DNA of 43,187 nucleotides, from contig JAFDYG010000438.1 of the NCBI GenBank assembly GCA_018267545.1, positions 1-43,187 on the forward strand. The letters run 5' to 3'. The position numbers and the translations under genes are program-made. Below are positions 7,068 to 42,729 of the stretch, in pieces. The notes beneath the pieces were generated by a model. It worked only from the letters and a program-made list of their open reading frames with translations, ran no database searches and was not told where the DNA came from. The DNA is from Bacteroidota bacterium (GTDB taxonomy: Bacteria > Bacteroidota > Bacteroidia > Chitinophagales > Chitinophagaceae). Within the stretch, counting starts at the first letter, position 1. Each line of letters begins with the position of its first letter.

Positions 7068-7144
7068 TAAATGTGTTTTAGGTTGTTAGAAAGCTCAAAA
7101 CATAACAAAAACCGTGCTTGGACCGCAGCCAAACAAGAAAAAAT

Positions 7145-7175
7145 TTGGATATAAAAAGGTTCGTTATTACTTTTG
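7145..7175 (+). promoter_or_regulatory. Predicted promoter of the asd leader
   Basis: TTG (7145-7147), a 20-base spacer, then TACTTTTG (7168-7175), an exact TAnnTTTG match. It predicts a start near 7179, a few bases before the leader peptide. No other exact promoter is seen between here and asd, so asd transcription probably starts here. Confidence 0.6.
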
Positions 7176-7183
7176 GCCCCGTT

Positions 7184-7249
7184 ATGACAATCAGCATGAA
7201 ACATACGAAGCAAATTAAGAAGCAGGTCCTGCAGCGGGATACGCTTTGA
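7184..7249 (+). CDS. Candidate asd leader peptide (21 residues)
   Basis: A short frame starts at ATG 7184 (MTIS) or the in-frame ATG at 7196 (MKHTKQIKKQVLQRDTL) and ends with TGA at 7247-7249. In the longer version eleven of 21 residues are Lys (4), Thr (3), Met (2) or Ile (2), all products of the aspartate pathway in which asd acts, and there is a tandem Lys-Lys. It starts a few bases after a predicted transcription start and is followed 25 bases later by an intrinsic terminator. This is the layout of amino-acid attenuators such as thrL. Whether it is translated is inference. Confidence 0.5.
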   Translation: MTISMKHTKQIKKQVLQRDTL

Positions 7250-7273
7250 TTGTTTTGTATGACAAGATAATAA

Positions 7274-7306
7274 AGGCCCTCCCGCAACTCGGGAGGGTTT
7301 TTTTTT
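7274..7306 (+). terminator. Intrinsic terminator in the asd leader (candidate attenuator)
   Basis: Stem CCCTCCCG (7277-7284) with CGGGAGGG (7290-7297), loop CAACT, then nine T. A competing six-base pairing is possible: GCGGGA (7234-7239, inside the leader ORF) with TCCCGC (7280-7285), which would break the terminator stem. Confidence 0.85.
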
Positions 7307-7435
7307 CAGGATTGGGCTATTGGAAAACTTAGCCCATCCTGAAAAACATTAAATAAATTGGCCTTCGGCCAGTGGGCCACGGGCCCACTTTTTACGGCCC
7401 CCGGGCCACTAAACTTTAAAACAAAAGAAAACACA
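7306..7435 (+). promoter_or_regulatory. Structured 5' leader of asd
   Basis: This stretch has no gene but dense inverted repeats. A 13-base-pair stem with one bulge joins TCAGGATTGGGCTA (7306-7319) and TAGCCCATCCTGA (7330-7342). TGGCC/GGCCA follows (7359-7371). AGTGGGCC/GGCCCACT (7371-7378 with 7382-7389) is followed by T-rich bases, so it resembles a second terminator. GGCC/GGCC lies at 7396-7407. AGTGG (7371-7375) can instead pair with CCACT (7406-7410), so alternative folds exist. No ribosome-binding site is seen; an A-rich run precedes the asd ATG. Confidence 0.5.
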
Positions 7436-8425
7436 ATGAAAGTTGCAGTCGTAGGCGCCACCGGCCTGGTAGGTACCAAAATGTTACAAGTCCTGGCAGA
7501 AAGGAATTTCCCCATTACCGAGCTCATCCCCGTTGCGTCCGAAAAGTCCATTGGAAAGGAAGTCGAATTTAAGGGGAAGAAATTCAAGATTGTCAGCGCC
7601 AACGATGCAATCGCCGCTAAGCCCGACCTCGCCCTCTTCTCGGCCGGAGGCAGCACCTCCCTGGAATGGGCGCCCAAGTTCGCGGCAGCCGGCATCACCG
7701 TCGTCGACAATTCCTCCGCCTGGCGCATGGACCCGACCAAGAAGCTGGTCGTCCCCGAGCTAAACGCCGACGCCCTTACCCGCGAAGACAAGATCATCGC
7801 CAACCCCAACTGCTCCACGATCCAAATGGTCGTAGCCCTCAATCCCCTCCATAAGAAATACAGGGTGAAGAGAATCGTCGTCTCCACCTACCAGAGCGTA
7901 ACCGGTACCGGCGTCAAGGCTGTAACCCAGCTGCTCAACGAAAGAAAGGGTGTACAGGGTGAAATGGCCTATAAATACCCCATCGACCTGAACGTCATTC
8001 CGCAGATCGACGTCTTCCTGGATAACGGCTACACGAAGGAAGAGATGAAGATGGTCAATGAAACCAAGAAGATCATGCGCGACGACTCCATCCGCGTAAC
8101 GGCGACTACCGTCCGTATCCCGGTAATGGGCGGTCATAGCGAGGCGGTCAACGTAGAATTCGAAAACGAATTCGACCTCAACGAAGTCAAGGCCCTGCTC
8201 AATAACGCTCCCGGCGTTGTCCTCGTCGACGACCCCGCAACGCAGCAATACCCGATGCCCAAGGACGCCCACGAACGGGACGAGGTCTTTGTAGGCCGGC
8301 TGAGAAGGGACGAGACCCAGCCCAAAACACTCAATATGTGGGTAGTAAGTGATAACCTCCGGAAAGGTGCGGCTACTAACGCGGTTCAAATAGCCGAATA
8401 CCTCAGCGGACAGAATTTGCTCTAA
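7436..8425 (+). CDS. asd: Aspartate-semialdehyde dehydrogenase
   Basis: A 329-residue protein, normal for the family. It reduces aspartyl phosphate to aspartate semialdehyde with NADPH, the branch-point step toward lysine/diaminopimelate, threonine, methionine and isoleucine. The N-terminal Rossmann motif is GATGLVGTKMLQVL; the catalytic cysteine is Cys126 in NPNCSTIQ; the substrate-binding region GGHSEAVNVEFE carries the conserved His. The frame is open upstream to 7358, but that stretch translates a GC-rich hairpin region and is not family-like, so the ATG at 7436 is used. Upstream lies a candidate attenuator; downstream is a clear terminator, so asd is probably transcribed alone. Confidence 0.96.
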   Translation: MKVAVVGATGLVGTKMLQVLAERNFPITELIPVASEKSIGKEVEFKGKKFKIVSANDAIAAKPDLALFSAGGSTSLEWAPKFAAAGITVVDNSSAWRMDPTKKLVVPELNADALTREDKIIANPNCSTIQMVVALNPLHKKYRVKRIVVSTYQSVTGTGVKAVTQLLNERKGVQGEMAYKYPIDLNVIPQIDVFLDNGYTKEEMKMVNETKKIMRDDSIRVTATTVRIPVMGGHSEAVNVEFENEFDLNEVKALLNNAPGVVLVDDPATQQYPMPKDAHERDEVFVGRLRRDETQPKTLNMWVVSDNLRKGAATNAVQIAEYLSGQNLL

Positions 8426-42657: not shown

Positions 42658-42729
42658 GGTCCCGTAGTTCAATGGATAGAATAGAAGTTTCCTAAACTTT
42701 TGATACAGGTTCGATTCCTGTCGGGACTA
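42658..42729 (+). tRNA. tRNA-Arg (anticodon CCT)
   Basis: Full cloverleaf by eye: acceptor GGTCCCG with CGGGACT (one G-T pair), D stem GTTC with GAAT, anticodon stem GAAGT with ACTTT around loop TTCCTAA (anticodon CCT, codon AGG), T stem ACAGG with CCTGT around TTCGATT, and discriminator A. CCA is not encoded. Several G-T pairs are present but every stem closes. Confidence 0.93.

Follow-up and report, generated by a model that had tools for sequence, protein, structure and literature searches.

How a bacterium of the family Chitinophagaceae might match expression of asd, the aspartate-semialdehyde dehydrogenase gene, to its supply of lysine and threonine is the question raised by a short stretch of DNA ahead of this gene. 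The stretch lies in the window (the whole 43,187 nucleotides analysed here, from a source genome of 7.3 Mb in 553 contigs). What computation established is the frame within it and how it is conserved, the alternative helices and how they covary, how the parts are spaced and which genes lie downstream. Taken together, these findings suggest that the element is probably a classical ribosome-mediated transcription attenuator of asd, which would sense charged Lys-tRNA and, at asd, Thr-tRNA. Most likely, such a switch would let the cell raise asd when lysine or threonine is short.

Organisation of the asd leader

An earlier note, made from the sequence alone, had described a promoter, a short frame and an eight-pair terminator with nine T before asd, and direct reading bears out its coordinates and counts (Table 1). 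The promoter (TTG at 7145-7147, a 20-nt spacer and TACTTTTG at 7168-7175) is one that we take to be of the Bacteroidota type, and the leader ATG at 7184 sits 8 nt past its -7 box. The window holds three matches to the pattern TTTG-N18-22-TANNTTTG, against a shuffle mean of 0.57 (three of 100 shuffles reach three). The only strict promoter near asd is the one at 7144, so that no second strict one lies between the terminator and asd (7307-7435), as had been claimed, looser promoters being possible there. The leader, MTISMKHTKQIKKQVLQRDTL, holds two Met, three Thr, two Ile and four Lys; the recount thus agrees with the claim that 11 of its 21 residues are end products of the aspartate pathway. 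Similarly, the proposed pairing of GCGGGA in the frame with TCCCGC of the terminator's left arm is confirmed by the perfect complementarity of 7234-7239 to 7280-7285.

The terminator arms, CCCTCCCG (7277-7284) and CGGGAGGG (7290-7297), form eight pairs ahead of the T run at 7298-7306, and this exact pattern occurs once in the window and in none of 100 shuffles. A generic terminator scan reported the hairpin at 7277-7306 on the minus strand only and left it out of the plus-strand list, which we attribute to pairing of the A run before the stem with the T run, in violation of the tail rule of the scan. Between the terminator and asd, positions 7355-7412 carry G+C-rich, GGGCC-type words (GGCCTTCGGCC, GGGCCACGGGCCCAC, CCCGGGCCAC), and similar intergenic stretches were seen by eye in two other loci, L013 and L017. 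The sole Rfam match of the window at gathering score is a tRNA gene at 42658-42729.

Table 1. Features of the asd leader region, in positions of the window
Feature	Position	Strand	Detail and evidence
Promoter, presumed Bacteroidota type	7144..7175	+	TTTG 7144-7147, 20 nt, TACTTTTG 7168-7175; sequence and pattern scan
Leader peptide frame, MTISMKHTKQIKKQVLQRDTL and stop	7184..7249	+	ATG 7184 to TGA 7249, 21 codons; sequence and relatives
Putative regulatory codons, K H T K Q I K K	7199..7222	+	Conserved Lys columns with free third positions
Segment 1	7202..7213	+	Partner of segment 2 (7250-7261); MFE and centroid fold, swap test
Antiterminator 5' arm, GCGGGA	7234..7239	+	Within the leader frame, before the stop; swap test and covariation
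Segment 2, TTGTTTTGTATG	7250..7261	+	Alternative partner of segment 1; 7250-7257 also of 7263-7270
CAAGATAA, antiterminator inner helix with 7250-7257	7263..7270	+	RNAalifold consensus and family alignment
Intrinsic terminator	7277..7306	+	8-pair G+C-rich stem and nine T; left arm common to the antiterminator
asd, aspartate-semialdehyde dehydrogenase, putative regulated gene	7436..8425	+	NCBIfam NF011456 and TIGR01296, both over cut-off

Conservation and distribution of the element

An Asd protein search found asd in 54 of 58 genomes. The best 30 of the 54 loci, chosen by Asd similarity only, are that of the window, a further 28 from its genus and one from a different genus. Each of these best 30 has a promoter, a frame, a complementary box and a terminator ahead of asd, and 27 of the 30 have a leader start 6-9 nt beyond the second box of the promoter, so that the leader mRNA would probably be near-leaderless. 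In two members of the genus (L022 and L026), the leader start lies 74 and 40 nt past the promoter box, distances at which the leader is not near-leaderless. In the wider set of 96 family elements, a promoter-like pattern was found upstream of the leader in 69 and not in the other 27, and in 53 of the 69 with a box, this lies 7-10 nt before the ATG. Several relatives have a gap of merely 19-25 nt between terminator and asd, which leaves little room for a promoter belonging to asd itself.

Two covariance models were used for searching. The first (R1), built from the 30 asd-locus sequences, matches 152 of 244 family genomes and 67 of 101 genera; the second (R2) matches 159 of the 244 and 73 of the 101, having been built from 96 elements, many out of the same genomes as those searched. 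These 96 aligned elements consist of 86 plus ten genus loci. The 86 are 26 of the 30 loci returned by the R1 family search (four same-genus repeats omitted) together with 60 stretches hand-picked for second copies and for spread over genera; six opposite-strand matches overlapping elements were removed from the 92 found on these 86 stretches. Eighty-five of the 244 family genomes gave no R2 match, among them G033, whose asd upstream region was read. The window's own genome holds no second copy, the next matches having E values of 4.8 or worse.

Beyond the family, matches thin out. The order search matched 32 of 198 genomes, two of them outside the family (L148 in genome G334, and genome G362 at E 0.009), and the phylum search matched 13 of 296, five of them outside the family and weakly (E 0.0015-0.009). 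When 300 bases of each of these five were read by eye, four had no such leader and the remaining one (L153) had a leader of the thr type. Among 80 named asd loci, which partly overlap genomes already in the family counts, 23 match upstream of asd at E 0.001 or better. The matched records include Niastella, Flavihumibacter, Limnovirga, Filimonas and Parafilimonas; a Sediminibacterium record reaches E 0.72 only, and the Mucilaginibacter, Pedobacter, Sphingobacterium, Hymenobacter, Dyadobacter and Flavobacterium records among the 80 gave no match upstream of asd. An ancient asd attenuator is unsupported: the stretches upstream of asd in 20 loci, one in the family member G033 and 19 in other families of the order, gave no model match at E up to 1. 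Judged from these searches, the element is rare or absent outside the family at this sensitivity, and with so few matches there, the asd element would best be seen as an innovation of this family.

Evidence for a translated leader rich in lysine and threonine

All 96 elements contain a leader frame with at least three Lys, and 84 contain at least four, in a collection made with R1, whose model includes the leader and which leaderless elements could therefore escape. Seven of these leaders failed a cruder leader test and two (L113 and L120) an anchoring step, and all of them are counted among the 96. Lys and Thr together make up 37.7% of residues in the leader frame; the two alternative frames of this DNA reach 12.9% and 20.8%. 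A cruder test of openness over 12 codons found 85 of 96 open in the leader frame, compared with 46 and 53 in the others.

Furthermore, conservation acts at the level of codons. In the genus-level alignment, insertions and deletions within the leader are multiples of three, and the start, stop and Lys codons are kept. Across the 96 sequences, less gapped rows, one conserved column has 88 Lys (66 AAG and 22 AAA) and a second has 89 (46 AAA and 43 AAG); mean column entropy at codon positions 1, 2 and 3 is 0.62, 0.89 and 1.25. This indirect evidence from sequence comparison suggests that the leader frame is translated.

Alternative RNA structures and their predicted switching

The leader RNA (7177-7310, 134 nt) folds at -46.3 kcal/mol (z -4.85), and none of 200 shuffles is as good. 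Two helices absent from the earlier note emerge from the folds: hairpin 1:2, whose 12 pairs join the Lys/Thr codons at 7202-7213 to the stretch past the stop at 7250-7261, and a second antiterminator helix between 7250-7257 and 7263-7270. Six pairs of 7263-7270 appear in the RNAalifold consensus of the 30 genus-level sequences, in which CAAGATAA and some other stretches are nearly invariant, and the inner helix of the antiterminator is paired in 80.0% of cells in the family alignment.

Covariation is weak in the genus-level alignment because the element is too conserved there. At family level, GAGAAG occurs together with CUUCUC in 11 elements with one and two exceptions (several being from the same genera), and GGAAAGG goes with CCUUUCC in three of three, the window's own element falling into the 'other' class of this contingency table. 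Among 65 non-redundant elements, the native antiterminator arms beat all of 500 swaps (-12.1 vs -11.2 kcal/mol), as does the native hairpin 1:2 (-12.0 vs -8.9 kcal/mol); in control pairings with the terminator arm, 58 of 500 swaps were as good for segment 1 and 187 of 500 for the first 30 nt. Two-sided changes occur in all 16 antiterminator pairs, in 161 cells against 46.5 in shuffled and 9-43 in slid versions, a count favoured by the fitting of the family alignment (A3) to the antiterminator. The swap and contingency tests are independent of this fit, with kinship only partly accounted for.

The spacing of the parts is also that which classical attenuation would need. The last conserved Lys codon ends a median of 12 nt short of the antiterminator arm (10th-90th percentile 10-13). 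In 94 of 96 elements, this arm would be overlapped by a ribosome at the stop, taken to cover 12 nt in either direction. Constrained folding was used to predict how much of the left arm is held by upstream RNA at a point when the right arm has yet to be transcribed: on average, a stalled ribosome gives a share of 0.80, a ribosome at the stop 0.07 and the absence of a ribosome 0.56. The predicted share with a stalled ribosome exceeds that at the stop by more than 0.1 in 96 of 96 elements, and that without a ribosome by the same amount in 47 of 96. In the window element, the corresponding shares are 0.74, 0.002 and 0.73; the nearness of 0.73 to 0.74 indicates that hairpin 1:2 gives no clear off-state protection there. 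The full-length RNA at equilibrium favours the terminator, with means of 0.91 (no ribosome), 0.83 (stalled) and 0.97 (at stop), and of 0.96, 0.95 and 0.96 in the window. Since the terminator wins at equilibrium in every state, the switch must act kinetically, during transcription.

Three features of a classical attenuator are found together: end-product codons in a short leader of predicted translation, a terminator and an antiterminator made mutually exclusive by a common arm (by sequence, covariation and swaps), and a spacing at which a stalled ribosome would free the antiterminator arm and one at the stop would cover it.

Downstream genes: asd and dapA

Among the 86 elements read, 74 are followed by asd and 12 by dapA, and in 21 of the 74 asd cases the first possible start codon lies no more than 40 nt downstream. 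The 12 dapA elements come from five genera, and 11 of the 12 genomes also have an asd copy among the elements read. Four of these dapA genes were confirmed by NCBIfam (L050 and L078 directly; L050, L068 and L072 by place), and the remaining eight were named by eye from their first residues. Their leaders contain KKHTKQVKK, KKHTKRVKK, KKHTKQSKK, QKHTKQVKT, KKNTKRSKK, KKYSSKKN, KKYACKKN or KKYNKVSKK.

The asd gene serves both the lysine and the threonine/methionine/isoleucine branches, and dapA serves lysine only. The composition of the leaders (84 before asd and 12 before dapA) differs in the same sense: before asd, Thr accounts for 12.0% of residues and Lys for 25.3%, and before dapA the two account for 5.8% and 24.0% (Fisher P 0.004 for Thr, with no correction for kinship). 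The leader codons would in this way follow the branch that the gene feeds. That the second gene carrying the element belongs to the lysine branch, and that its leader keeps Lys with Thr reduced, supports the attenuator reading.

In the window's genus, dapA follows what is presumably an accA reading frame, and the genus loci read by eye show no such leader before it, unlike genomes G034, G139 and G156. In one further locus (L271, on contig C8 of genome G011), a dapA-like gene (TIGR00674 over cut-off) starts within about 40 nt after asd, so that the attenuator may control an asd-dapA operon there.

Proposed mechanism and alternative explanations

In the model proposed, transcription would start just before the leader ATG. 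With lysine and threonine plentiful, the ribosome would reach the stop codon (7247-7249) and cover GCGGGA at 7234-7239; the left arm (7277-7284), thereby left free, would close with 7290-7297, and RNA polymerase would stop at about 7306. With lysine or threonine short, the ribosome would stall within 7199-7222 and mask segment 1, upon which GCGGGA could pair with 7280-7285 and 7250-7257 with 7263-7270. The terminator would then form too late, and asd would be read. The earlier note had proposed such leader-peptide attenuation for asd, in which a ribosome stalled at the Lys codons would leave GCGGGA free and one at the stop codon would cover it. The relatives, the spacing (12 nt in the median, overlap in 94 of 96), the covariation and the dapA copies all lend support to it, and the frame that the note expected related genomes to keep is present in 30 of the 30 asd loci (best 30 of 54) and in 96 of 96 family elements.

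What exactly would be sensed is the point at which an alternative comes closest. An attenuator might sense lysine only, its Thr and His codons being kept because CATACAAAG must pair with CTTTGTATG. The best-kept Thr column and the His column indeed fall inside helix 1:2, so that the conservation of Thr and His in the first block may be structural; the second Thr column is mixed (Thr 46, Ile 24, Ser 10 and Val 8 in 96 sequences less gaps), and Lys density is alike before asd and dapA. We nevertheless consider a lysine-only sensor unlikely, as Thr is twice as frequent in asd as in dapA leaders, in keeping with the two branches of asd, and the second Thr column varies freely at the third position.

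Three further alternatives carry less weight. A 5' RNA acting as a ligand- or protein-binding switch, with translation of the frame incidental, would account for an RNA that is strongly structured and for CAAGATAA being among the nearly invariant stretches at genus level. It would leave the synonymous Lys columns, the in-frame indels, the frame in 96 of 96 elements and the spacing of codons, arm and stop without a reason, and no Rfam family matches at gathering score, the permissive scan being weak on the element; a binding switch is thus very unlikely, and a riboswitch was rejected on the codon-level conservation and the absence of an Rfam match. The terminated RNA of about 125 nt could also be a separate trans-acting sRNA or small-protein gene with asd as a mere neighbour, given that it has its own promoter and a strong terminator and that the trp attenuator RNA of Sinorhizobium is described as a dual-function sRNA (PMC10117765). 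A mere neighbour is hard to reconcile with asd or dapA, both genes of the lysine pathway, next to each of 86 elements, and with the scant room for a promoter where a start codon follows within 40 nt (21 of 74 asd cases), and its probability is accordingly slight; a trans role in addition to attenuation is possible. Finally, A-rich DNA yields Lys codons readily, and the other two frames are open in 46 and 53 of 96 elements, as would be expected of a chance A-rich frame before an ordinary terminator. The leader frame, by comparison, is open in 85 of 96 in the same crude test and runs from start to stop in all 96, and with conservation and covariation across the family, chance is barely credible. 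A classical attenuator of asd, responsive to lysine and threonine, remains the preferred reading.

Other leader-like elements in the aspartate pathway

Apart from the asd and dapA copies, other candidate leaders came to light. In the window's own genome, a Thr/Ile-rich frame with a GTG start, ending in ITTIITITTR and a stop codon, lies upstream of a thrA-like gene (L315; G000:C189:13700-14700), in which a homoserine dehydrogenase domain is found in an 816-residue frame. The leader stop falls inside the hairpin ACAACCCGTTAAGGGTTGT, followed by CCATATTACC..TGGGC, and the stretch read has no T run; this looks like leader-peptide control without an intrinsic terminator, as judged from sequence. 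A script recovered the hairpin with a Thr/Ile-type frame in 13 of 16 loci (L315 and its relatives L316-L330).

In another family of the order (G334), a Lys-rich frame, MMIYKHKSSKRFLPKW and stop, with a terminator lies 5' of lysA (L148, about 1501-1614; lysA by TIGR01048 over cut-off; R2 match at E 3.7e-4). In another family of the class (G438), a Thr/Ile leader, MYNSTIIITIIITTGRNLAEE and stop, with a terminator (L153, about 1486-1615) stands ahead of a gene for which bifunctional aspartate kinase/homoserine dehydrogenase I is the best NCBIfam model. The gene falls below the NCBIfam cut-off because it is cut short by the end of the locus, and a homoserine dehydrogenase domain is present in the same 849-residue frame; the leader has a sub-threshold Rfam Thr_leader match (36.5 bits vs 55, E 0.0019). 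With the thrA-like, L153 and L148 leaders, control by leader peptides seems to recur in the aspartate pathway of these bacteria.

A broader proposal, about as likely as not, is that the family uses a lysine leader-peptide attenuator in place of the lysine riboswitch, copied between pathway genes with its codons retuned (Lys and Thr before asd; Lys with less or no Thr before dapA), and that another family of the order may have the same solution before lysA (L148).

Comparison with known systems

The lysine riboswitch binds lysine directly. In other bacteria, lysine genes are under the control of such an element (L-box) at the RNA level (PMC1262725). The corresponding family, RF00168, was absent from the window at gathering score and from all of 117 family genomes under stricter filters, as against matches in four of 14 control genomes. 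A scan of the window with Rfam 15 placed no family, Thr_leader (RF00506) included, on the element at gathering score, and a permissive scan of 15 loci (eight with the element) gave only Phe_leader as own-strand matches on the element, at 28-29 bits against 55. The attenuation mechanism is textbook, and the element itself is without a matching Rfam 15 family. The literature covered, which included few subscription papers, gave no account of asd or dapA in Bacteroidota being preceded by a leader-peptide attenuator for lysine.

If the proposal holds, leader-peptide attenuation would extend to lysine, for which the example in the papers searched is limited to a suggestion from Sinorhizobium. It would also offer a testable answer to how these Bacteroidota, with no lysine riboswitch detected, might adjust flux through the aspartate pathway to their supply of lysine and threonine. 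The asd and dapA copies amount to a natural experiment in which the codons, and not the RNA switch, track the branch of the pathway, and the element, at about 120 nt and with two covariance models to hand, is a candidate for curation as an RNA family.

Within the same phylum, strong clues for leader-peptide attenuation before amino-acid operons are reported in Flavobacterium psychrophilum (PMC9723704), and, in Bacteroides thetaiotaomicron, short ORFs resembling leader peptides within long 5' UTRs (PMC7366714); the passages available leave the amino-acid operons unnamed. The nearest precedent found is SEP5 of Sinorhizobium, a small ORF rich in Thr and Lys that lies in the 5' UTR of what the paper names an aspartate dehydrogenase gene. 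Towards its 3' end SEP5 has six Thr codons and three Lys codons; it is proposed as a possible leader peptide of the Thr/Lys pathway and described as conserved in Sinorhizobium only (PMC10117765). SEP5 differs in being alphaproteobacterial.

Among Proteobacteria, attenuators of this kind govern the amino-acid operons trp, his, thr, phe, leu and ilv. The present element resembles these classical examples in its leader of product codons, a stop at the antiterminator arm, mutually exclusive hairpins, a terminator and a biosynthetic gene downstream. It is unlike them in belonging to Bacteroidota, in having Lys and Thr codons before asd and Lys-rich leaders before dapA, and, in 53 of the 69 elements with a promoter box found, in a leader that begins 7-10 nt after it.
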